Positions 3,018 to 27,123 of a stretch of 33,255 bases of DNA are shown here, piece after piece. Origin of the DNA: a virus; IMG/VR virus record IMGVR_UViG_3300025141_000411, positions 1 to 33,255 of that record; one strand, given 5' to 3'. Made by a program: the position numbers and the translations under genes. Under the pieces are notes generated by a model. That model was given only the letters and a program-made list of their open reading frames with translations. It was not told the origin of the DNA and did no database searches. The stretch's first letter is position 1; every line of letters starts with the position of its first letter.

Positions 3018-3137
3018 ATGAATACACTAAAACTAACATTACACAGACTAATAAATGCATTTAATCTAAAGCATTGCTGCTGCTGCTGTGGCTGCTGCGC
3101 ATGCGAACATTGTAACGGGAGCTGCAACACGTTATGA
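3018..3137 (+). CDS. Cysteine-rich 39-aa protein
   Basis: ATG 3018 is preceded by AGGGG at about 9 bases, and the stop TGA (3135-3137) overlaps the next gene's ATG (3134) as ATGA, the coupling typical of real phage genes. The product has a short amphipathic basic N-terminus (MNTLKLTLHRLINAFNLK) and then ten cysteines within residues 20-36: HCCCCCGCCACEHCNGSC. No signal peptide or lipobox pattern is clear. Such a cluster could bind zinc or another metal, form disulfides, or be acylated at a membrane; none of these can be decided here. The TGC-TGC-TGC-TGC run is partly a triplet repeat, which may have arisen by slippage. I do not recognise the family. Confidence 0.6.
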   Translation: MNTLKLTLHRLINAFNLKHCCCCCGCCACEHCNGSCNTL

Positions 3138-3484
3138 ACATTACAGGAAAAAGACTTAATAAAATTATTAAAGAGGAATTAGATATTTTCCTTAATCAAG
3201 AGGGTGTCGAATCCTCAGATATTACAAACTTAAGAGAGCCGGTGCCCAGCGACCCCGATGCCCTAGCTAACAATATTAAAATCGCTTCCCGGGTCTTAGA
3301 GGATCTTGTCGGCGGAGAATTAGCTGAACTTGCTGGCGTAACTAAGAAACTAGCCGAAGCGGCCCAAGCTCTCAGAGAAGTTCTCGACGAGCTATCAGTT
3401 AAGAATCCGAATCACTTAGGCGACCACGAAGTAGAAGTTCCAACGCCACAACCAGCCGCCCCAGGAACTACAATTATTCCTTGA
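3134..3484 (+). CDS. Small protein with IIKEE-type N-terminal peptide
   Basis: 116 aa, start ATG 3134 coupled by ATGA to the Cys-rich ORF. It begins MNITGKRLNKIIKEELDIFL, which closely resembles the N-termini of the proteins encoded at 22657 and 22924 near the prohead protease. The middle (residues 45-85) is helical and rich in Ala, Glu and Leu, and the C-terminus is a proline-rich tail (PTPQPAAPGTT). No enzyme motif is visible. The N-terminal element fits the (I/L)-x-E cleavage pattern of T4-type prohead proteases, so the protein could be an internal head protein, but this is inference. It sits between primase and SbcCD genes. Confidence 0.7.
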   Translation: MNITGKRLNKIIKEELDIFLNQEGVESSDITNLREPVPSDPDALANNIKIASRVLEDLVGGELAELAGVTKKLAEAAQALREVLDELSVKNPNHLGDHEVEVPTPQPAAPGTTIIP

Positions 3485-8425: not shown

Positions 8426-11400
8426 GTGGCAAAATCGACTAAAGGATCTATTGGAAGCTATAGCAGAGGTAAGTTAGAGAAGATCATTGATGATCGTGTA
8501 GACACTTCTGCCGCGGGCAGCGCGTTTACAACAATAGCAGTATCGGGACAATCTAATGTAGTTTCAGATGGTGCTACTGACACCTTAACACTAGTAGCTG
8601 GATCCAATATGACTATCACCACCAGTGCGGCTGGTGATTCGATTACTTTCGCTTCTTCAGGTGGAGGCGGCGGAGGTGATACAGCCATAACCGGCACGCT
8701 AGACGTAACTGGTGCGTCTTCTTTACAGGGCTCTCTAGAAGTTATTGGCGAAACTACACTAGATGGCGATATAAACCTAGGTAACGCTACAGGCGATACT
8801 ATTACAGCCACTGGCCGTTTTGATTCGGACCTCGTTCCATCTTCCGACAGCACCCGGGACTTAGGCACGTCTGCTTTGCAATGGGCAGAGGCACACATTG
8901 ACCACGGCTACATTGACGCTATTACTGCAACTGGCACTTCGACTCTAACTACTGTTGATATCAACGGTGGTAACATCGACGGGACCGTCATCGGCGCAAA
9001 CAGCGCTGCAGCCGGCACGTTCGCGGCTATCGCAGGCACAACAGGCACTTTCAGTAGTAATGTTGCTGTCACTGGTACATTAAACGTAACTGGAGATGTC
9101 ACATTGAATGGTGACTTAATTCCAGATAGCACGTCCAATGGCGCAGCTACAAAAGACTTGGGATCTAGTGCGAACCAATGGAAAGATCTCTACATCGATG
9201 GTACGGCTCACCTGGATGAAGTCGATATCGACGCAGGTGCCATCGATGGAGCCGTCATCGGCGCAAACAGCGCTGCAGCCGGCACATTTACTGCTATTGC
9301 AGGAACAAGCGCAGCCGTTTCTGGCACGCTTGACGTAACAGGTGCGACATCTTTACAAGGCGCCGTCGAAGTCGTAGGCGCAGCAGATCTGGCAAGTACT
9401 TTAATAGTCGCCGGCGCAACAACATTAAATGGCAAGTTCACCGGCTCTAATGGTTTCGACTTGCAAGACGGAGGTTCATCCCTCATAAAAGGTGATGACA
9501 CCAATGGAATTGTATTTGGAAGTAACTGGACCGCCGCAAGTAAAACTTGTGCCAACCTTGGCACGGTAACAACTGCTGATATCGATGGTGGCTCGATTGA
9601 CGGAACCGTCATCGGTGCTAACAGTGCCGCTGCCGGCACATTCGCGGCTATCGCAGGCACAACAGGCACTTTCAGTAGTAATGTTGCTGTTACCGGCACT
9701 CTAAACGTAACAGGGGATTCTACGTTTAATGGATCTCTAATCCCAGACAGCACGGAAAATGGTGCAGCTACAAAAGATTTGGGCTCCAGTGCCAATCAGT
9801 GGAAAGATTTATATATCGATGGTACGGCTCATTTAGATGCAGTTGATATCGATGGTGGTAATATAGACGGTACCGCCATCGGAGCCAACAGCGCCGCTGC
9901 CGGCACGTTCACTGCTATCGTAGGAACCAGCGCTGCAGTATCTGGTACGCTTGATGTGACTGGCAATACTTCTTTACAGGGAACACTAGAAGTTGTCGGA
10001 GATACGACATTAAATGGAGCAGTAAACCTAGGAAATGCAGCCTCGGACATTACAACTGTTGTAGGCAAACTAACAGCCTCCAACGGACTCTCAGTAACGG
10101 GAGATGTAGGATTTGACAACGCGTCATTTACAGGCGACGTGACTTTAGGGAATGCAGTAACTGACGTAACAACTGTCACTGGGCAACTTACCGCTTCTAA
10201 TGGAATTGTCACCACAGCGGCCACTGTTACAGACGGGCTAACAGTTTCTGCCGGTACAACAGCAGTGCAAGCTTTGACAGCCACAACTATATCAGGCTCC
10301 AGTACACTGCAGGTCGGCGGGACTGCTGACTTTGACGGCAATGTTACTATGGATAACGACCTTGCTGTGGCCGGCACAACAACTGTAGTGGCTATCACCG
10401 CATCAAACGGTGCTACTATAACAGGAAGCTTGAGAGTAAAAGATGAAGCAGAATTTGCTAGTGAATTATCAGGCACGATAATCAGAGCTACTGCAATATA
10501 TCTTAATGACGACGCAATAACTGCTGGCGTGAATACAGGTGGAGATAATACTTGGACAGGCACCAATATATTCTCTAGTAAGCTGACCGCATCAAATGGC
10601 ATGATGATAACAAATCATTTGTTAGCTGATAACGGAACTGTCACTATTTCAGGACAACTTACTGCATCCAGCGGTGCAACAATTACAGGTAGCGCACGCT
10701 TTGCAAGCGAAGTAGAGATGGCGGATACGCTAGATGTCACGGGAAATACTACGATAGCCGGAACATTATCAGCAGGAGTAACAAATGTAACTACGCTTAC
10801 TGCATCTAACGGAATAGCAATCACTGGAAGCCTCAGAGTAAATGACGAAGCAGAGTTCGCAGGCCCCGTCGATATAAACTCAGGATATATAGATGGAGTG
10901 TATCTTGGAACGAGCACTGCCATTCCTCAGTTAACTGCTAGCAGCCTTCTTGTTGACGGAGATTTTCAAGTTAATGCATCTGCAAAGATAAGTTCGCTAG
11001 CACAAGATCTTAATGTCAACGGCTACAATGTAACAAATGTAAGCCAGCTTGATGTTGACGGCAACTTTGATTTTGATGGAGACCTAGACGCAGATGTCGA
11101 TAACTGGAATGTTACTGCAACAACTTCTTGGTCTACAACTCTCAATGGAAGTATGACGGATCCCCAAGCCTACTTTAAAGATGGCGACGGAACAACTGTT
11201 TTGGCTGTTAACCCCCTGCCAAATCCCGGGGCAAGAGGATTAAATCTCTATGCTGCCACTAAAGCATATTTCGGCATTAACGGTATGAACCAAAGCGGCT
11301 CTATCGGTTGCGAAGACGATAAAACACAACTTATTATTAGTGGGACAAACGGTATTGATGTTTCAGGAAGCACAAACTTCGCAGACAGCGTGTTTATTTC

Positions 11401-12154
11401 TGGCACCTTAGATATTAGTGAGTTTGACAATCAACCAGATACTCCGGACGCAGATAAAATAAAAGTATTTGCGAGAACAGGATCTTTATTTATTATAAAT
11501 GATCTGGGAGAAACAACAAAGATTGGTTCTGGTACTGGAGGCGGAGGCGGAGGCTCTACATCTCCGGGCGGTTCTGACACACAGATACAGTTTAATGATG
11601 GTGGCTCGTTCGCTGGAGATTCAGGTCTAACATATAACAAAACGACAGATACCTTATCAGTAACTAATCTTACTTCTTCAAATGGAATATCTGTTTCTGG
11701 CAGCTTTAAAGTAAACGATCGCGTTGAGATTGGCGGATATCTAGGAGTGGGAGTCTCGGAAGAGGAAGTTACTCATGGAATCACTTTGCCTAATAGCAGC
11801 GGAGTTGACGGTTCAGCAAAAGCAAATGCCTTCATAACCTACTCTTCAATAAGATATAAGTCGGATGTTAAAGAAATTCAGGATCCTTTAGGCAAAATTG
11901 CACAGCTAAGAGGCGTAACTTATAATTGGAAGGATTCAGGCAAGTCTGATGTTGGACTAATTGCTGAAGAAGTGAGCAAGGTAATGCCTGAAATTGTATC
12001 TTTCGAGCCTAACGGTAAAGACGCCTTTGGCATAGATTATTCTAAGCTAACTTCACTACTTTTGGCATCGGTCAAAGCACAACAAAGTATGATCGAGACC
12101 CAAAACAAGAAGATAGAAGAGCTAGAAAATAAGCTTAAAAAAATTATAGATTAA
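8426..12154 (+). CDS. Long repeat-rich tail fibre protein with S74 chaperone domain (fibre 1)
   Basis: 1242 aa from GTG 8426, preceded by GGGGG; an ATG at 8424 is out of frame. The N-terminal 70 residues lead to a glycine run (SSGGGGGG), then the protein is built of short beta repeats: GTLDVTG, TTLNG, ASNG(I/A)..TGSL and IDG(T/A)VIGANSAAAGTF. Such repeats form trimeric beta shafts in phage fibres. A second glycine-rich hinge (GTGGGGGGSTSPGG) precedes the tip. The end is a Peptidase S74 intramolecular chaperone starting near FITYSSIRYKSDV, with the Ser1140/Lys1145 pair spaced as in self-cleaving members; the usual Ser-Asp is Ser-Ser here. A final coiled coil (IETQNKKIEELENKL) fits trimer assembly. 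Cleavage would release about 103 residues. Role: host receptor binding, inferred. Confidence 0.85.
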   Translation: MAKSTKGSIGSYSRGKLEKIIDDRVDTSAAGSAFTTIAVSGQSNVVSDGATDTLTLVAGSNMTITTSAAGDSITFASSGGGGGGDTAITGTLDVTGASSLQGSLEVIGETTLDGDINLGNATGDTITATGRFDSDLVPSSDSTRDLGTSALQWAEAHIDHGYIDAITATGTSTLTTVDINGGNIDGTVIGANSAAAGTFAAIAGTTGTFSSNVAVTGTLNVTGDVTLNGDLIPDSTSNGAATKDLGSSANQWKDLYIDGTAHLDEVDIDAGAIDGAVIGANSAAAGTFTAIAGTSAAVSGTLDVTGATSLQGAVEVVGAADLASTLIVAGATTLNGKFTGSNGFDLQDGGSSLIKGDDTNGIVFGSNWTAASKTCANLGTVTTADIDGGSIDGTVIGANSAAAGTFAAIAGTTGTFSSNVAVTGTLNVTGDSTFNGSLIPDSTENGAATKDLGSSANQWKDLYIDGTAHLDAVDIDGGNIDGTAIGANSAAAGTFTAIVGTSAAVSGTLDVTGNTSLQGTLEVVGDTTLNGAVNLGNAASDITTVVGKLTASNGLSVTGDVGFDNASFTGDVTLGNAVTDVTTVTGQLTASNGIVTTAATVTDGLTVSAGTTAVQALTATTISGSSTLQVGGTADFDGNVTMDNDLAVAGTTTVVAITASNGATITGSLRVKDEAEFASELSGTIIRATAIYLNDDAITAGVNTGGDNTWTGTNIFSSKLTASNGMMITNHLLADNGTVTISGQLTASSGATITGSARFASEVEMADTLDVTGNTTIAGTLSAGVTNVTTLTASNGIAITGSLRVNDEAEFAGPVDINSGYIDGVYLGTSTAIPQLTASSLLVDGDFQVNASAKISSLAQDLNVNGYNVTNVSQLDVDGNFDFDGDLDADVDNWNVTATTSWSTTLNGSMTDPQAYFKDGDGTTVLAVNPLPNPGARGLNLYAATKAYFGINGMNQSGSIGCEDDKTQLIISGTNGIDVSGSTNFADSVFISGTLDISEFDNQPDTPDADKIKVFARTGSLFIINDLGETTKIGSGTGGGGGGSTSPGGSDTQIQFNDGGSFAGDSGLTYNKTTDTLSVTNLTSSNGISVSGSFKVNDRVEIGGYLGVGVSEEEVTHGITLPNSSGVDGSAKANAFITYSSIRYKSDVKEIQDPLGKIAQLRGVTYNWKDSGKSDVGLIAEEVSKVMPEIVSFEPNGKDAFGIDYSKLTSLLLASVKAQQSMIETQNKKIEELENKLKKIID
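9020..9690 (+). repeat. 50-bp exact direct repeats inside fibre 1
   Basis: Positions 9020-9069 and 9641-9690 are identical over 50 bases and 621 bases apart, in the same reading frame. They encode the FAAIAGTTGTFSSNVAV unit. Flanking sequence is similar but diverged at third positions, so the two modules were copied or recently converted. Further related units lie around 8976, 9240, 9598 and 9860. Confidence 0.9.
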
Positions 12155-12297: not shown

Positions 12298-14532
12298 ATG
12301 GCTATTAAACTAAATGGAGATACTCTCCAATATGACGATCTCGGAGGCAATGTAAGTACTATCGCAACATTATCAAATGATGCATTTGCAATGGCTTCGG
12401 GCTCACAACTTGAGGTTGCTAACCTGCACGTAGGTGGCAATCTTACTGTTCTCGGCACCCAAGCTCTGGGTGACGCTGAAGCTGACTCGTTAACTGTTAC
12501 GGGTGATGCTTCTTTTGCCAATGGTGTTACGGCATCTATTGGTATTACGATCTTAGATGATCAAAAACTTAGCTTTGGCACAGGACTCGACGCTACGTTC
12601 GAGTATGATGAGGACGGAAACGATGTTCTTCTCTACGACGGCGCAGATATGCGTTTTGGTGACGACATTAAACTCGGCTTCGGTGCCGCCGGCGATGTTA
12701 CAATTGAGTATGACGAAAATGGAGACGACGTTCTCCAGATTGCCGGTGGGAATGTACGCATTGGTCACGGAGCAGCTACACAGCTTCAGTTCCGCGATTC
12801 TGCTGTACACATTAGCTCTGATGCTGATGGTTACTTAAACGCTCAAGCTGACACTGGTGTTAACTTAAACATCGGTGGCACTGACGTCTGCTTGGTAACA
12901 TCTGCTGGACTTAACGTTGTTGGTACGCTTACTGGCGACACTAGTCTAACAATTGATGCTATAACTCTTACAGATACTGAGCTAGGCTATCTTGATGGTC
13001 TAACATTAGGTACTGCTGCTGCTTCCAAGGTAATGACTTGGGACGCGTCCAGCGATTGGACCGCTGCAGGCGGCACATGTGCTAACCTTGGTACTGTAAC
13101 TACTGTTGACATCAACGGTGGTAACATCGATGGAACCATCATCGGCGCCGCAAGCGTTGCTGCTGGCTCTTTCGCTGCTCTCGTAGGTACAACAGGTACT
13201 TTCAGTAGCAATGTCGCCGTCACTGGTACATTAAACGTAACTGGAGATGTCACACTGAACGGCGCTCTAATCCCAGACAGCATGGCCGATGGCGTAGCTA
13301 CAAAAGACTTGGGCTCCAGTGCTAACCAGTGGAAAGATCTCTACGTTGATGGTGTAGCTTACTTGGATGAAGTCGACATTGACGCAGGCGCAATCGACGG
13401 TACCACCATCGGCGCGAACGCAGCGCGAGCAGGTACATTTACCGACTTGACTGTATCTGGCAAGCTTTCGGGCTCCAACGGCTTCAGAGTTTCTGACAAC
13501 GGTGCCATGGCTGTCATGAGTCTCAATGATACTGACGGTTTTGATCTTACGGTTACTTCTGCAACCATTTCATCTAATATGGCTGTGACTGGTACTCTAA
13601 ACGTAACCGGCAACTTTGTGTGTGACTCGGACATCCTTCCGGATGAAGACGGCGCAGGCGACTTAGGCTCAAGCTCACTACAGTGGGCCGAAGCTCATAT
13701 TGATACTGGTCACATTGACACAGTAACAGCAGTTAACGTTGATGGTATTCTCGGTGCTAACTCCGCCGCTGCTGCAACGGTCACAACGCTCTCCGCCACC
13801 GGAGACGTTGATCTTGGTGACGCAACATCCGACACCATTACAGCCACTGGCCGTTTTGACTCGGATCTCGTTCCGTCAACTGACTCTGCTCGTGACTTAG
13901 GCACAAGCGCACTACAGTGGGCAGATGCTCACATTGACCACGGTTACATTGATGCAATCACTGCAACCGGTACTTCGACTCTAACTACTGTTGACATCAA
14001 CGGTGGTAACATCGATGGAACCATCATCGGCGCCGCAAGCGTTGCTGCTGGCTCTTTCGCTGCTGTAATCGGTACGACTATTTCTGGCTCAACAAGCGTT
14101 AGCGCGCCAACGTACACCACAAACGGTGGTGGAGTATTCGTCGTCGACGCCGACGCGGACTACCTCACTTTCAACACTGATACGGCTACATTCGCTAACG
14201 ACATTAATGTAAAAGCTCTGAGCTTCATCACCTACTCGGATGCAACCCTCAAGCAAGATATCAAACCACTTGATAGCGCGCTCGACAAGGTTATGTCAAT
14301 GAGAGGAGTTTCTTACGAGTTTAAGAATCAAACTACCGCTGATGGTGCAACCCATCGCGAGGTCGGATTCCTAGCTCAGGAAATGAAGCAAACTGTACCA
14401 GAAGTTGTCTATGGCTCAGGCGATGGCAATCTCGGTATTGACTACGCGAAACTCACTTCGGTTCTAGTTGAGGCTGTAAAGTCCCAGCAAGGCCAGATTG
14501 AAGAGCTTCGTGCTGCTTTGCTCAAAAAATAA
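12298..14532 (+). CDS. Repeat-rich tail fibre protein with S74 chaperone domain (fibre 2)
   Basis: 744 aa from ATG 12298 with GGGGGA upstream. It shares units with fibre 1 (DINGGNIDGTIIGAASVAAGSF, DLGSSANQWKDLY, FSSNVAVTGTLNVTGD) and with fibre 3 (DNGAMAVM..NDTDGFDLT.TSATISSN). Its own region at residues 80-175 has calcium-site-like acidic repeats (EYDEDGNDVL, EYDENGDDVL). The C-terminal S74 domain begins at SFITYSDATLKQDIKPL, with Ser647, Asp648 and Lys652 in the canonical SDxxLK motif, followed by MSMRGVSYEFK, GFLAQEM and GIDYAKLTSVLVEAV, and a short coiled coil. Self-cleavage at Ser647 would release about 98 residues. It is probably an alternative or co-assembled receptor-binding fibre. 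Confidence 0.85.
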   Translation: MAIKLNGDTLQYDDLGGNVSTIATLSNDAFAMASGSQLEVANLHVGGNLTVLGTQALGDAEADSLTVTGDASFANGVTASIGITILDDQKLSFGTGLDATFEYDEDGNDVLLYDGADMRFGDDIKLGFGAAGDVTIEYDENGDDVLQIAGGNVRIGHGAATQLQFRDSAVHISSDADGYLNAQADTGVNLNIGGTDVCLVTSAGLNVVGTLTGDTSLTIDAITLTDTELGYLDGLTLGTAAASKVMTWDASSDWTAAGGTCANLGTVTTVDINGGNIDGTIIGAASVAAGSFAALVGTTGTFSSNVAVTGTLNVTGDVTLNGALIPDSMADGVATKDLGSSANQWKDLYVDGVAYLDEVDIDAGAIDGTTIGANAARAGTFTDLTVSGKLSGSNGFRVSDNGAMAVMSLNDTDGFDLTVTSATISSNMAVTGTLNVTGNFVCDSDILPDEDGAGDLGSSSLQWAEAHIDTGHIDTVTAVNVDGILGANSAAAATVTTLSATGDVDLGDATSDTITATGRFDSDLVPSTDSARDLGTSALQWADAHIDHGYIDAITATGTSTLTTVDINGGNIDGTIIGAASVAAGSFAAVIGTTISGSTSVSAPTYTTNGGGVFVVDADADYLTFNTDTATFANDINVKALSFITYSDATLKQDIKPLDSALDKVMSMRGVSYEFKNQTTADGATHREVGFLAQEMKQTVPEVVYGSGDGNLGIDYAKLTSVLVEAVKSQQGQIEELRAALLKK
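13097..14064 (+). repeat. 83-bp exact direct repeats inside fibre 2
   Basis: Positions 13097-13179 and 13982-14064 are identical over 83 bases and 885 bases apart, both in frame and encoding TTVDINGGNIDGTIIGAASV and what follows. Related but diverged copies occur in fibre 1 near 8945. Identity at silent positions implies recent duplication or gene conversion. Confidence 0.9.
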
Positions 14533-14708: not shown

Positions 14709-15668
14709 ATGGCTATTAAGATTACGGGGGATACGCTGCAAGCCGATTCAACCACAGTTGCGACACTCTCGACAACTTCTTTTTCACTAGCTGGTACCGC
14801 GGCTCTGACAGCTTCGTCAGGTCTTTGCGTTACTGGCTCTCTTCGCGTACTAGCGACAGGTACTGATACCGGAGGGTCGGAAGAAATTGAACTTTCTGGA
14901 GACACTAGCATCTCCGGCTCACTCAATGTTACAGGAAACTTAGCCCTTCCTAACATTTCAGAGGTAGGTTCTGACACTGATCAGTTTTTATGTACGGATA
15001 GCGGCATTATCAAATATGTTGACGGAAGCAATTTAGCTACCTATATTGGGGCTGTCTCAACTAGCGCCAATAATACTTTTACAGGAAATAATACTTTCTC
15101 CGCAAAGCTATCTGCCTCTAACGGTATTAGTGTTACTGACGGTGCCATGGCAGTCATGACGATCAATGATACTGACGGCTTTGATCTTACGGCTACTTCT
15201 GCAACCATTTCATCTAATACTGCTCTAACTGGTACGCTCAATGTAACTAGCACTACAGAGCTTCAAGGAACTCTTGCCGTAGTCGGAGCAGCTAGTTTTG
15301 ACACTCATGTCACTCTAGCCTCTACCGGAGATTGCACTGCGCGCAGTTTCATTACTTATTCGGATGCAACACTAAAGACTGATGTTAAGCCACTCAACAG
15401 TGCGCTTGATAAAGTTATGTCAATGAGAGGCGTATCCTATGAGTTTAAAAATCAGACCAATAAAGATGGTGCAACTTCACGCGAAATCGGGTTCCTGGCT
15501 CAAGAGATGAATAAGTCAGTTCCAGAAGTTGTTTATGGTGCCGGTAATGGAAACTTGGGCATTGACTATGCAAAATTAACTTCTGTCTTAGTCGAAGCAA
15601 TTAAAGACCAGCAATCTCAGATCCAAATCCTGCGCGATGACCTTCAGACTGCTTTGTCAAAAAAATAA
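14709..15668 (+). CDS. Short tail fibre protein with S74 chaperone domain (fibre 3)
   Basis: 319 aa from ATG 14709 with GGGGG upstream. The N-terminus MAIKITGDTLQADSTTVATLSTTSF matches that of fibre 2 (MAIKLNGDTLQYDD...TIATLS), and a middle stretch (DGAMAVMTINDTDGFDLTATSATISSN) is nearly the same as in fibre 2. The C-terminal S74 domain has Ser218, Asp219 and Lys223 in SDATLK, then MSMRGVSYEFKNQTNKDG, GFLAQEMNKSVPEVVYG and GIDYAKLTSVLVEAI, about 85 percent like fibre 2 by eye. Self-cleavage would leave a mature fibre of about 217 residues. It looks like a shortened duplicate of fibre 2 that shares its attachment end and chaperone. Confidence 0.85.
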   Translation: MAIKITGDTLQADSTTVATLSTTSFSLAGTAALTASSGLCVTGSLRVLATGTDTGGSEEIELSGDTSISGSLNVTGNLALPNISEVGSDTDQFLCTDSGIIKYVDGSNLATYIGAVSTSANNTFTGNNTFSAKLSASNGISVTDGAMAVMTINDTDGFDLTATSATISSNTALTGTLNVTSTTELQGTLAVVGAASFDTHVTLASTGDCTARSFITYSDATLKTDVKPLNSALDKVMSMRGVSYEFKNQTNKDGATSREIGFLAQEMNKSVPEVVYGAGNGNLGIDYAKLTSVLVEAIKDQQSQIQILRDDLQTALSKK

Positions 15669-22004: not shown

Positions 22005-22655
22005 ATGCCTGCTTTTATTATTATGTCAAAAAAACTTTTACAAGAATATTTTCAATTATGTCCTGACGGTATTTGTGATTTAACTGTACTGACAGAGGAT
22101 GAGAAGAAGAGAGTTGACGATGGTTCTGTTTATCTTGTAGGCGTATGCCAGAAGGCCGGCACCAAAAATGGTAATGGAAGAATCTATCGTAAAGAAACTT
22201 TGCAAAGAGAAATCGAGACTTATCAAAAAGCCGTAAAAGAAAGACGATCACTAGGAGAATTAGATCATCCTGACGATTCTGTCATCAACTTAAAGAACGC
22301 TTCACACTTAGTGGATAGAATGTGGTGGGACGGCGATAATGTTATGGGAAAGATTGAAGTTTTAGATACTCCTTCTGGTAAAGTATTAAAAGCATTGCTG
22401 AAGTCTGGTGTTAAACTAGGAATCTCGTCCAGAGGAATGGGATCAGTAAAAGAGTCAAACGGCATAACAATGGTAGAAGACGATTTCCAACTCATTTGTT
22501 TCGATATTGTTTCAGAGCCGTCGACCCCGGGAGCCTACTTGGATCCGGAAGGCTCTAGCCGAAGCAGAGTTACAGTTGGTCTTGCAGAGAACCAGCAAGC
22601 TACAACAAAATCACAAAAAGTCAATAATATACTAGATGACATTCTCGGAGATTAA
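22005..22655 (+). CDS. Prohead core protease, T4 gp21-like
   Basis: 216 aa from ATG 22005; a second ATG at 22023 (MSKKLLQEYF) is a possible start. Motifs match T4 gp21: VYLVGVCQKAGTKNGNGRIYRKETL, SLGELDHPDD with the catalytic His (T4 GELNHP), MWWDGDNVMGKIEVLDTPSGK, and KLGISSRGMGSV with the catalytic Ser (T4 GVSSRGLGS). The enzyme is a serine protease that matures the prohead by cleaving scaffold, internal proteins and capsid precursor after (I/L)-x-E. The start lies in a small hairpin, GCAGG...CCTGC (21998-22012), followed by TTTTATTATT. Small genes with I-x-E N-termini follow directly. Confidence 0.9.
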   Translation: MPAFIIMSKKLLQEYFQLCPDGICDLTVLTEDEKKRVDDGSVYLVGVCQKAGTKNGNGRIYRKETLQREIETYQKAVKERRSLGELDHPDDSVINLKNASHLVDRMWWDGDNVMGKIEVLDTPSGKVLKALLKSGVKLGISSRGMGSVKESNGITMVEDDFQLICFDIVSEPSTPGAYLDPEGSSRSRVTVGLAENQQATTKSQKVNNILDDILGD

Positions 22656-22656
22656 A

Positions 22657-22887
22657 ATGAAATTAAATAAATCACATTTGCAGAAAATTATTAAAGAAGA
22701 ATTGCAGAAGATGTCAGAGAACATGAGTGATGATATGTATAATCGAAGCGACGATCTAGATGAGAAACTAAAAGATGCAGTAGCAATCGCGCTTGAAGCC
22801 GGCCTTCCAGTCGAGCACATTGAAAAGAGAATGGCCGCAGCCCTTGAGAGAGTAGTAGCCGGTGGCTGGAACATGCAGAGGCCATAA
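22657..22887 (+). CDS. Small prohead-module protein with IIKEE N-terminus
   Basis: 76 aa from ATG 22657, one base after the protease stop, with CGGAG upstream. It begins MKLNKSHLQKIIKEELQKMS; the rest is an acidic helix (SDDMYNRSDDLDEKLKDAVAIALEAGLP) ending WNMQRP. The N-terminal pattern is shared with the genes at 3134 and 22924 and places a protease-type I-x-E site near residue 14. By analogy with T4 it may be a small prohead core or internal protein. A longer reading from 22636 is less likely because it lacks a ribosome site. Confidence 0.65.
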   Translation: MKLNKSHLQKIIKEELQKMSENMSDDMYNRSDDLDEKLKDAVAIALEAGLPVEHIEKRMAAALERVVAGGWNMQRP

Positions 22888-22923
22888 AATATTTAGCTAG
22901 ATAATAGCGAGAGGAACTTTACA

Positions 22924-23109
22924 ATGAAAATTACAAGACAGCAGTTAGCACAAATTATTAACGAGGAGCGGCAGAAGCTTGCAGATGTTGCAACACTGGT
23001 TAAGGGTGCAATCCAGAAAAAGCGCTACAGCGAAAACAACAAGCTCACCCTAACCGATCTACAGCAAATCGTACAAGAAGAAATAGTTAAATTAAATGAA
23101 GAAAAGTGA
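22924..23109 (+). CDS. Small prohead-module protein with duplicated IIxEE peptide
   Basis: 61 aa from ATG 22924 with GAGAGG nine bases upstream. It begins MKITRQQLAQIINEERQKLA. A second copy of the same pattern lies at residues 40-57 (KLTLTDLQQIVQEEIVKL), so the protein is essentially two such peptides joined by a short basic linker. No other domain is visible. It overlaps the next gene by 14 bases. A scaffold, core or internal head role is suggested by its place between protease and scaffold and by the possible cleavage sites after IINE and IVQE. Confidence 0.65.
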   Translation: MKITRQQLAQIINEERQKLADVATLVKGAIQKKRYSENNKLTLTDLQQIVQEEIVKLNEEK

Positions 23110-23515
23110 ACTAAAAAAAGTACTTAAGCCGCTAATCAAAGAATGCATCAAAGAATGCATTTTTGAAGATGGCGTATTATCTGGAATTATCACAGAAGTT
23201 GTATCTGGTCTAGAGACTAGAAGAGTTGTAACGGAAGGTGTAACAATTCAAGCAAAGACAGATGACCGCGAAGCTAAAGAAAAGCAGCGCCAAGCGGAAC
23301 AAGAGTACGAGAAGCAGAGACAAGAAAGAATCAAGAGATTAAACGAATCTGCTAAAGTAGGCGGAGTTAATGTTTTCGAGGGCATTAAAAAAGATGCTGT
23401 AATTCCAGAAAGCAGCACTCAGGGCCCGCTCACTGGTGTTAGATCCGGAGATTCCGGTGTAGATATTAGTGGTATTCTAAATATTGCTAATGGCAAGTGG
23501 AAACAACTAATATAA
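23096..23515 (+). CDS. Uncharacterised coiled-coil protein of the head module
   Basis: 139 aa from ATG 23096, overlapping the previous gene. It begins MKKSELKKVLKPLIKECIKEC; the two IKEC units are a perfect 12-bp tandem repeat (23135-23146 and 23147-23158). A charged coiled coil covers about residues 60-90 (DDREAKEKQRQAEQEYEKQRQERIKRL), followed by a Ser/Gly-rich tail ending GILNIANGKWKQLI. The N-terminus is a distant variant of the IIxEE peptide. Function is unknown; a core or scaffold-associated role fits its place. Confidence 0.65.
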   Translation: MKKSELKKVLKPLIKECIKECIFEDGVLSGIITEVVSGLETRRVVTEGVTIQAKTDDREAKEKQRQAEQEYEKQRQERIKRLNESAKVGGVNVFEGIKKDAVIPESSTQGPLTGVRSGDSGVDISGILNIANGKWKQLI

Positions 23516-23525
23516 AGGCACTATA

Positions 23526-23759
23526 ATGGGAAGACCAGTACATGTTGAAGTTTCTTTAGATGAAGTCGGTGGGAATCCAAGCAGACTAATTAAGAAATTT
23601 ATTAAAAAAGTTAAAAAATCTAAGATACTAGATATTGTTAGAGAAAAAAGATACTACGAAAAACCTTCCGCAAAGCGCCGCAGGGATCGCATGAACAAAC
23701 GCAGAAACGCACAGAAATTTGAACGAGACCGCCAAAAAAGATTGGACATCAAGTACTAG
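23526..23759 (+). CDS. rpsU: Ribosomal protein bS21 homologue
   Basis: 77 aa, very basic, from ATG 23526 with AAAGG upstream. The family core is clear: LIKKFIKKVKKSKILDIVREKRYYEKPSAKRRRD (residues 21-54), matching the bS21 pattern of a helix, then RR(E/K)xYYEKPxxxRRR, then a basic tail. E. coli bS21 is 71 aa and helps mRNA binding on the 30S subunit. Viral bS21 genes are known in pelagiphages and other aquatic phages, where they are thought to enter host ribosomes and favour phage mRNA. Its place among late head genes is notable. The N-terminal MGRPVHVEVSLDEVGGNP is slightly longer than usual. Confidence 0.85.
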   Translation: MGRPVHVEVSLDEVGGNPSRLIKKFIKKVKKSKILDIVREKRYYEKPSAKRRRDRMNKRRNAQKFERDRQKRLDIKY

Positions 23760-24250: not shown

Positions 24251-25228
24251 ATGTCTTCTATGTTAGAACAAGCTGTTATTGACGCCGAAGCATTGCGTGA
24301 AGTAGCTATTAAAAATGCGGAAGCCGCAGTGATTGAAAAATATTCACAAGAGATTAAAGGCGCGATTGAACAGCTCCTAGAGCAAGACGAAATGATAGAT
24401 CCTATTATAGACGACATGCCGCTCGCCGCTACAGAAGGCGAACCGGCATGCCCTTGCCCGGATGAAGATACTGTTTATAGAATTGATTTTCCTGAGCTAG
24501 CCAAACAGGCCGAGGTCGAAGCAGGCGCCGAAGAATCTCACGAAGATGCCGCACTCGATGTTGTTGGCGAGCCAGGGGAAGAAGAAGATATCCCTATGGG
24601 CTTAGAAGAGGGCCAGGATAATATCGAACTAAATCTAGAAGATCTAGACCTCGAAGGCCTCTTGGAAGACCTAACCGTGGAGACGCAGCCTACTAAGAGT
24701 GGCTGGGCCGGCACTCCAGCTTCTGCTGTAGCGGAGCAGGAAGAGCAAGCTTTGGCCATGGCCGAAGACGACTCGGTAAAGGAAGAGCAGGAAGCTCTAA
24801 GGCAAGCAGCCTCTAAACTAGAAGAAGGTAACAAGAAGCTAAAGAAGAAGCTACATGTTCAAAACAAGAAAGTTGAAAAACTAGAAGAAACTGTAGACAA
24901 GCTTGTTACTACTTTAAACGAAACAAATATATCGAACGCAAAATTACTATACACAAACAAGGCTTTGACTAGCGACTCCTTGAATGAGCGGCAAAAAAAT
25001 AAAATTGCCGAAGCACTGTCAAAAGCTGAAACTGTTGAAGAGGCAAAAGTAATGTACGAAGCACTTCAAGGCGCAGTGGGCAGCCCTTCTAAAAAGCAGC
25101 CAACAGAATCACTGAGTGAAGCTGTAAATAAGACTTCTTCAACGTTGTTACTTTCCAGAAATAAAACTGGAGAGGATAAAGCTGGTCAGAAACCTGATCG
25201 GTGGAAAATTTTAGCAGGAATTAAATAA
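24251..25228 (+). CDS. Prohead scaffold (core) protein, T4 gp22-like
   Basis: 325 aa from ATG 24251 with GAGGAGG upstream. It is very acidic in the first 185 residues and then has a coiled coil (KEEQEALRQAASKLEEGNKKLKKKLHVQNKKVEKLEETVDKL). The conserved end of gp22-type scaffolds is visible as NAKLLYTNKALTSDSLNERQKNKIAEALSKAETVEEAKVMYEAL. It lies directly upstream of the major capsid gene, as gene 22 does in T4. It builds the inner core on which the capsid assembles and is later degraded by the protease. A CPC motif near residue 68 (ACPCPDED) is unusual. Ends with DRWKILAGIK. Confidence 0.85.
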   Translation: MSSMLEQAVIDAEALREVAIKNAEAAVIEKYSQEIKGAIEQLLEQDEMIDPIIDDMPLAATEGEPACPCPDEDTVYRIDFPELAKQAEVEAGAEESHEDAALDVVGEPGEEEDIPMGLEEGQDNIELNLEDLDLEGLLEDLTVETQPTKSGWAGTPASAVAEQEEQALAMAEDDSVKEEQEALRQAASKLEEGNKKLKKKLHVQNKKVEKLEETVDKLVTTLNETNISNAKLLYTNKALTSDSLNERQKNKIAEALSKAETVEEAKVMYEALQGAVGSPSKKQPTESLSEAVNKTSSTLLLSRNKTGEDKAGQKPDRWKILAGIK

Positions 25229-25278: not shown

Positions 25279-27123
25279 ATGTCTGTATTAGACAAACTTA
25301 CTGAAGGTATCGTTCATCGTGACGTTCAGAAGGAAGGCGCTGCTCTACTTGATAAGTGGGAGAGAACTGGACTTCTTGAGGGTTTAGATAACGATAACAA
25401 GAAAAATGGCATGGCCCGCCTTTTAGAGAATCAGGCCGCGCAGCTTCTTAAGGAAGCTTCATCTATGGCTGCTGGCGACGTCGAGGGCTTCGCTTCTGTA
25501 GCTTTCCCGATTGTCCGTCGTGTATTCGGTGGCCTTATCGCGAATGACCTTGTGTCGGTTCAGCCAATGAGCTTACCGTCTGGTCTCATCTTCTTCATGG
25601 ACTTCCAGTTCAATGGAGCCCGCCTAGGCGACGCTGCTAACGATTCACTGTATGGTGGTGGAGTTGTTGGTTCGGCGCTAACCGGTGGTGTTAGCCTCAC
25701 TGGTGATAATGCCGAGAAGAGCTTCTACGCTCTTAACAACGGTCACTCTTCACCAACAGGCTCGGCCACTTTCGCACTTACTATAATCGCTTCTGGCGTT
25801 GTTGGTAATGGCGAGAATGACGACGTAGCAGCTTCTGTTACAGCCGCAACCATTGGTAATAGCACCGTGGCAACAAGCTTGAGCAAGCTTGTCCGCTTTG
25901 ATGCTGACGTCTCAGGCTCTGGTGTTGTCGTTTGCGCTGTAACCGGTGCAAATAACCTTGACGATGGTACTGGTCGTGTAGACTTGCTTAACCGCAACAA
26001 CCTAATTGCCCTAAGCCCGTCGACTTCTGCCGGCGCCGCTGATGGAGCTAGCTCGGTTTCTCTTGATACCGACAAGGGTCGTATGGTTCGCCGTCTAACC
26101 GCTATGGTTGGTGGTGAGGAGGGCAACTCAGACGCTGCAGTCAACGCTTTGACTACAACTGCTGCTAGCACTTCTTATGTTCTCGTCTTCGAGTGTACAG
26201 GTTCATCCGGTACCGCAGAGGATGTCGAGGATCTTAAGACTCACCTAACGTCCAAGCGTCTCACCGTTAGCTTCCCTCTGGAAGATAACTTCGATGCCTC
26301 GAACGCTCTAGGTTCCGTAATCGGTGCTACACCGTGGGGACTTGAGGGTGAAGAGAGCATTCCCGAGATCGACATCAAGGTTGACAGTATCGCCGTCACA
26401 GCGATCACTAAGAAGCTCAAGGCTAAGTGGACGCCAGAGCTTGGTCAGGACCTCAATGCTTATCACAACCTCGACGCCGAGGTTGAGCTAACGAGCATTC
26501 TTTCGGAGCAAATTGCTCTAGAGATTGATCGCGAGATCCTTAATGACCTAGTTCGTGGAGCCGCTGGTGAGACCTATCACTGGTCACGCCGCCCGGGCCG
26601 ATTCTTGAATCGTGACACTGGTGATGCGCTAACTGTAGGTGCAGCAATTGCTGGTCCAGACTTCACGGGTAACGTATCCGAGTGGTACGAGACTCTTGCA
26701 GAGACCATCAACGACGTGTCAGCGAATATCCACAGAAAGACTCTTCGTGGCGGAGCTAACTTCGTAGTAGTTTCCCCGGAGGTCGCGAACATTCTTGAGT
26801 TCACTGCTGGATTCCGCGCAAGCGTTACTGCTGACCAGGACAGCGGCACCGTAGGTGCTGTTAAGGTTGGTAGCCTTAGCAAGAAGTGGGATGTCTATGT
26901 TGACCCCTACTTCCCGCGCAACGTGGTATTAGTAGGCCGTAAGGGTGGTAGCTTCCTCGAAAGTGGCTACGTATACGCTCCTTATGTCCCGCTACAGGTC
27001 ACACCCACCATCTTTGGTACGGAAGACTTCGTACCACGTAAGGGCGTCATGACGCGCTATGCGAAGAAGATGGTTCGACCTGATATGTATGGCTTAGTTA
27101 TTGTACAAGATCTTCTTGGATAA
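25279..27123 (+). CDS. Major capsid protein precursor, T4 gp23-like
   Basis: 614 aa from ATG 25279 with GGAGG ten bases upstream. Family hallmarks: FPIVRRVFGGLIANDLVSVQPMSLPSGLIFFMDFQF near residues 76-111, then KKLKAKWTPELGQDLNAYHNLDAEVELTSILSEQIALEIDREIL, YVYAPYVPLQVTPTIFG and MTRYAKKMVRPDMYGL at the end. LLKE59 before Ala60 fits the maturation site used by the prohead protease (T4 cuts after residue 65). Compared with T4 gp23 (521 aa) there is a Gly/Ala/Ser/Thr-rich insertion between about residues 112 and 330, likely a surface domain. Third positions are more C-rich than in neighbouring genes, as expected for a highly expressed gene. A terminator follows. Confidence 0.95.
   Translation: MSVLDKLTEGIVHRDVQKEGAALLDKWERTGLLEGLDNDNKKNGMARLLENQAAQLLKEASSMAAGDVEGFASVAFPIVRRVFGGLIANDLVSVQPMSLPSGLIFFMDFQFNGARLGDAANDSLYGGGVVGSALTGGVSLTGDNAEKSFYALNNGHSSPTGSATFALTIIASGVVGNGENDDVAASVTAATIGNSTVATSLSKLVRFDADVSGSGVVVCAVTGANNLDDGTGRVDLLNRNNLIALSPSTSAGAADGASSVSLDTDKGRMVRRLTAMVGGEEGNSDAAVNALTTTAASTSYVLVFECTGSSGTAEDVEDLKTHLTSKRLTVSFPLEDNFDASNALGSVIGATPWGLEGEESIPEIDIKVDSIAVTAITKKLKAKWTPELGQDLNAYHNLDAEVELTSILSEQIALEIDREILNDLVRGAAGETYHWSRRPGRFLNRDTGDALTVGAAIAGPDFTGNVSEWYETLAETINDVSANIHRKTLRGGANFVVVSPEVANILEFTAGFRASVTADQDSGTVGAVKVGSLSKKWDVYVDPYFPRNVVLVGRKGGSFLESGYVYAPYVPLQVTPTIFGTEDFVPRKGVMTRYAKKMVRPDMYGLVIVQDLLG

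Follow-up and report, generated by a model that had tools for sequence, protein, structure and literature searches.

An N-terminal peptide on diverse small proteins of uncultured marine T4-superfamily phages is most likely a prohead-targeting propeptide

Background

Three small proteins encoded in a 33,255-nt fragment of an uncultured T4-superfamily phage (an IMG/VR record; this whole stretch is hereafter the window) begin with a common peptide pattern. What does this peptide do for its carriers, and does it direct them into the prohead, as an earlier note on this DNA had proposed? In bacteriophage T4, the internal proteins IPI, IPII and IPIII carry capsid targeting sequences (CTS) (PMC9026906, PMC3012670), and the gp21 protease cleaves after (L/I)-x-E (PMC9026906). 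Our literature search found no description of the present tag peptide or of tags in marine phages.

The window possesses terminase and T4-type portal genes. Its head gene cluster, on the + strand, comprises a gp21-type prohead protease (Peptidase_S77; 22005..22655; Pfam PF03420, E=9.9e-32; PHROG head maturation protease, E=1e-60), which is the predicted tag-processing enzyme, a probable scaffold/core protein at the gp22 position between gp21 and gp23 (24251..25228; weak PHROG minor-head match), and the gp23 major capsid protein (25279..27123; Pfam PF07068, E=2.7e-73). A protease site is predicted in gp23 at L57-K-E59 before A60 (codons 25447-25455). The motif LL(K/R)E followed by A, S, T or Q is conserved in about 45 related gp23 proteins, and is placed like the T4 LTE65-A66 cut. 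A homologue of ribosomal protein bS21 (23526-23759) is found within the cluster, an arrangement also seen in Microcystis phage Mel-JY01 (L370). Elsewhere in the window, three tail-fibre-like proteins (8426-12154, 12298-14532 and 14709-15668) have related C-terminal ends (SDATLK-D-KPL...GFLAQEM), which look like an intramolecular chaperone domain.

Results

The tagged proteins of the window, all on the + strand, are a 76-aa protein encoded by the first gene after gp21 (22657..22887; tag MKLNKSHLQKIIKEEL at 22657-22704), a 61-aa protein (22924..23109; N-terminal tag MKITRQQLAQIINEER at 22924-22968) and a 116-aa protein encoded between the primase and gp46/47 genes (3134..3484; tag MNITGKRLNKIIKEEL at 3134-3181). 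The N-terminal pattern common to them, recognised in the earlier note, is far above chance. The second copy that the note had seen in the 61-aa protein is also real: it lies near the C-terminus (NKLTLTDLQQIVQEEIVKLNEEK, residues 39-61, positions 23038-23106) and ends in LNE-EK, an LNE ending seen in the window on this C-terminal copy only. Tag copies at both ends recur in L005, L116 and L241 (the last in contig G022), L005 and L241 being longer than the 61-aa protein. The 116-aa protein had been regarded as a member encoded elsewhere, in agreement with which four tagged genes occupy the primase-gp46/47 slot of the related contig G017/L614. The relative L002, with a protease 97% identical to that of the window, has in the slot of the 76-aa protein a gene with the same tag and a different body.

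The tag is N-terminal, with the consensus MKITKxQLKQIIKEEL, and is widespread. A degenerate DNA pattern for M-K-I-T-x3-L-x2-I-I-x-E-E matched at least 120 stretches in IMG/VR viral contigs, against none for a scrambled pattern and one for another MKIT-type control. Since a single match provides no base rate, a second control pattern (MAEKLKD) was used instead. Only 16 stretches were found in 257 Gb of GTDB bacterial and archaeal genomes, and three of the 12 genomes behind them encode an S77 protease. In 80 loci chosen by protease similarity alone, together with the window, all 63 N-terminal matches were on the + (coding) strand. Positions left free in the pattern are conserved as well (K2 87%, K5 73%, Q7 54%, K or R at position 9 79%). 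The codons of the tag vary freely, so that selection acts on the protein and not on the DNA. Each of six near-complete genomes has 3-10 tagged genes, every one of them on the strand of the head genes; in 18/72 loci a tagged gene comes first after gp21, and tandem runs of tagged genes occur in L046, G013 and G017. About 600 non-redundant tagged proteins were gathered in total.

The tag pattern had one match (in LR756508) among T4, KVP40, P-SSM2, Cr30, immuto, HTVC008M, Mel-JY01 and LR756508. A tblastn search of 50,697 phage records with the 61-aa protein or a 22-aa consensus returned nothing useful except one 484-kb metagenomic phage, the short query and the low-complexity filter being limiting. 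About nine tag matches each were found in NHDW01000006 (L207/L213/L215) and PBIO01000025 (L209/L211), which are binned as bacterial genomes (Methylococcaceae, Halobacteriovorax). These contigs are probably misbinned phages, because those assemblies encode an S77 protease.

The protein at 23096..23515 (+ strand), previously proposed to bear a weaker variant of the tag, falls outside the family. Its orthologues form a separate family (34 sequences aligned, 31-71% identical to the window protein) with a conserved N-terminus of their own, MKKxELKKILKPLIKECIKEVxFEEGVLS. In most of the 72 related loci compared, an orthologue directly follows gp21 or lies close to that position; in the window two tagged genes intervene. 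The alignment and the conserved position near gp21 rule out a tag variant, and we describe it as a conserved gp21-neighbouring protein, helical according to a low-confidence model.

Given the specificity of gp21, we looked for (I/L)xE around the tag. Within offsets 13-26 of the motif start, (I/L)xE was present in 185 of 318 non-redundant proteins, against 84 under row or residue shuffling and 94±6 under column shuffling. When followed by A, G or S it was present in 79, against 18-23 by shuffling. An independent set of 296 proteins gave nearly the same picture, with 178 sites against 88 expected (z 14.7) and 71 against 21 for those followed by A, G or S. Thus, in both sets 58-60% of the proteins exhibit the site after the tag, about twice the expectation. 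V/M/F-xE and (I/L)xD exhibited no excess at this place in the independent set, and among untagged proteins of six of these genomes (I/L)xE was found in 17.6%. The glutamate of the site peaks at offsets 18-19, corresponding to protein residues 20-22. The earlier note had pointed to the I-x-E of the peptide itself. Its link to (I/L)xE holds, whereas the core is probably not the main site: in most members the likely cut is about 7-8 residues after the I-x-E-E core. The site directly after the leader is a property of the family as a whole. About 40% of tagged proteins have no (I/L)xE at the expected downstream place, including the three of the window, whose N-terminal tags offer only the core IKE/INE. 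As judged from sequence, such proteins may be processed at the core (IKE-E/INE-E) or escape cleavage.

A tagged protein enclosed in the prohead together with an active protease would be expected to have no further sites in its body. From residue 31 on, the observed/expected ratio was 0.92 for (I/L)xE, 1.34 for the mirror motif E-x-(I/L) and 1.36 for (I/L)xD; neither the mirror nor the aspartate control is avoided. The (I/L)xE-to-mirror ratio was 0.68 (0.60-0.78) in tagged bodies, replicated at 0.76 (0.66-0.87) on the independent set, versus 1.09 (1.02-1.17) in untagged proteins. As a positive control, (I/L)xE was counted in T4 IPI, IPII and IPIII: each has a single one, where the CTS ends. We regard the depletion of protease sites from the putative mature part, seen in two independent sets, as the strongest single argument for the targeting reading, because it does not involve the tag at all.

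The enrichment of the tag in genomes with a gp21-type protease, the check suggested in the earlier note, was also observed: 30 of 50 tagged contigs encode S77, against 2 of 43 controls (p about 1e-8), a comparison in which phylogeny is a confounder, the tags being a feature of the T4 superfamily. Restriction to contigs of 15-100 kb gave 19/36 and 0/38, and all nine tagged contigs of at least 140 kb encode S77, as does the window. Tagged contigs lacking gp21 could be held to disprove the link. We reject this, because 19 of the 20 also lack gp23, which makes fragmentation the likelier cause; in the exception gp23 is cut by the contig end. One tagged contig of 125 kb (G019, L602-L608) encodes a divergent portal of T4 type, but gp21 and gp23 were both undetected in it; these head genes may be located elsewhere or have diverged strongly. 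We take the association with gp21 as supporting evidence only.

With the tag removed, the first 307 of the roughly 600 tagged proteins fell into about 260 single-linkage families; the leader is thus common to otherwise unrelated proteins. Tagged proteins are small and mildly acidic, and most of the cargo has no known function by Pfam and PHROG comparison. Few of the 121 longer bodies compared have a match to a family, and the matches include AAA_33 and GNAT domains.

A second N-terminal leader, with the consensus MKLLxENWRKFLNE, emerged from homologues of tagged bodies that lack the tag. It had 73 strict matches, against 4-12 for control motifs and one in control loci. Many unrelated proteins carry it (L087, L125, L205, L228, L238, L266, L437 and L582 among others), including NUDIX, guanylate-kinase-like and ADP-ribosyltransferase-like proteins. 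In 29 pairs of homologous bodies, one has the KIT...IIKEE tag and the other the ENWRxFLxE leader. For instance, leaders are exchanged between L194 and L590, whose AAA/kinase-like bodies are 52% identical over 229 residues, and between L586 and L582, whose Fe-S-like bodies are 64% identical over 137 residues. Since homologous bodies carry either leader, the two are exchangeable. They have the same position, but the second is shorter, tryptophan-based and without the IIKEE core. Site avoidance in second-leader bodies is weak (0.91, CI 0.79-1.04). Matches to this leader were only scattered in the named or annotated records (T4, KVP40, P-SSM2, Cr30, immuto, HTVC008M, Mel-JY01, LR756508 and DSL-LC01). 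The Fe-S-like cargo, for which the structure model is of poor quality, has a relative in the unrelated phage DSL-LC01, encoded directly upstream of capsid maturation protease genes. The end of the gp23 propeptide of the window (LLENQAAQLLKE, residues 48-60) resembles the second leader (LLENWRKYLNE), and the two may use a common docking surface on the core.

Discussion

These analyses suggest that the tag is most likely a prohead-targeting propeptide, similar in function to the T4 CTS but with another sequence. The proposal that such tags mark a set of internal proteins gains support, at the level of sequence, from the modularity of the tag, the (I/L)xE after it, the avoidance of that site in the bodies, the exchange of leaders, the association with gp21 and the LL(K/R)E conserved in gp23 where T4 gp23 is cut. 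Against it weigh the roughly 40% of tagged proteins without the downstream site, the phylogenetic confounding of the gp21 association, the difference in sequence from the T4 CTS, the yield of at most one tag match in the named or annotated phage records searched, and the shortage of cargo with a known function. We consider it probable that the tag is a modular capsid-targeting propeptide which docks on the scaffold core and is cut by gp21 after (I/L)xE, the body being released inside the head. A probably helical leader of 20-22 residues (MKITKxQLKQIIKEELxxxLxE) would attach its protein to the scaffold core while the prohead assembles. Cleavage by the serine protease gp21 would follow the (I/L)xE, usually at residues 20-22, shortly past the core motif, and would release the body inside the head. 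The released body may then leave the head together with the DNA at ejection.

Tagged proteins might instead be prohead core proteins like T4 gp67 and gp68, recruited and then chopped, with the tag marking scaffold. They are indeed small, mildly acidic and often encoded beside gp21 (the 18/72 loci above), and in T4 gp67, whose gene immediately precedes those of gp68 and gp21, the stretch IDLIKEEKIAIARNFLIE-G is similar to the tail of the tag. However, T4 gp22 has 16 (I/L)xE sites and gp68 has five in 141 residues, whereas tagged bodies avoid the site. Part of the cargo also looks enzymatic, with AAA_33 and GNAT domains behind the tag and NUDIX or guanylate-kinase-like proteins behind the second leader. 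We thus regard a core-protein role as unlikely.

Nor do we see much prospect for a docking helix with another destination, such as the membrane, RNA polymerase or the tail, the (I/L)xE excess then being a by-product of an amphipathic helix. The consensus does appear helical and amphipathic, and some tagged genes are distant from the head genes. Yet column shuffles, which preserve positional composition, leave the excess unexplained, V/M/F-xE and (I/L)xD are not in excess, and the bodies avoid (I/L)xE but not its mirror. It seems very improbable that the tagged proteins are fast-diverging paralogues of one family with an N-terminus conserved by happenstance. The tandem genes of L046, G013 and G017 suggest local duplication, but about 260 unrelated body families, different Pfam folds and the presence of the same bodies with the other leader or with none argue against a single origin.

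A broader version of the targeting hypothesis, for which we see about an even chance, is that two exchangeable head-loading codes load hundreds of proteins into the virions of uncultured marine T4-superfamily phages, a changing effector set that enters the host with the DNA. The cargo would then include kinase-like, acetyltransferase, NUDIX, ADP-ribosyltransferase-like and Fe-S-like proteins. T4 internal proteins are known from few examples, one of which inhibits a restriction enzyme of the host. With a recognisable tag, it could be predicted from sequence which uncharacterised small genes of abundant marine phages travel in the virion, and hundreds of hypothetical proteins would become candidates for delivered effectors or for anti-defence proteins. 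The tag also predicts new N-termini after LxE in virion proteins.

Comparison with known systems

Several arrangements of T4 recall the present one. T4 gp67 and gp68 are, like the tagged proteins, small and encoded beside gp21; they are cut by gp21, and gp67 has an LIKEE...LIE stretch. T4 core proteins are cut into several fragments, whereas tagged bodies avoid sites. The double-ended tags of the 61-aa protein, L005, L116 and L241 recall T4 Alt, both ends of which undergo processing (PMC9026906), a likeness of arrangement for which we claim no sequence relation. The second leader resembles the T4 CTS in being N-terminal and in its (W)xx(F/Y)LxE end, which corresponds to YQEFIAE of T4.

The closest likeness is that between the tag and the T4 CTS. 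Both are N-terminal on otherwise unrelated small proteins, with a gp21 (I/L)xE site, site-free bodies and hypervariable cargo. In contrast to the CTS, which is about 10 residues long (MKTYQEFIAE), the tag takes 20-22 residues to the site, about twice as long, and exhibits no sequence kinship to it; unlike the CTS, it occurs on hundreds of protein families in uncultured phages. The sequences being different, we regard the tag as CTS-like in its working rather than as a homologous member of the CTS family.
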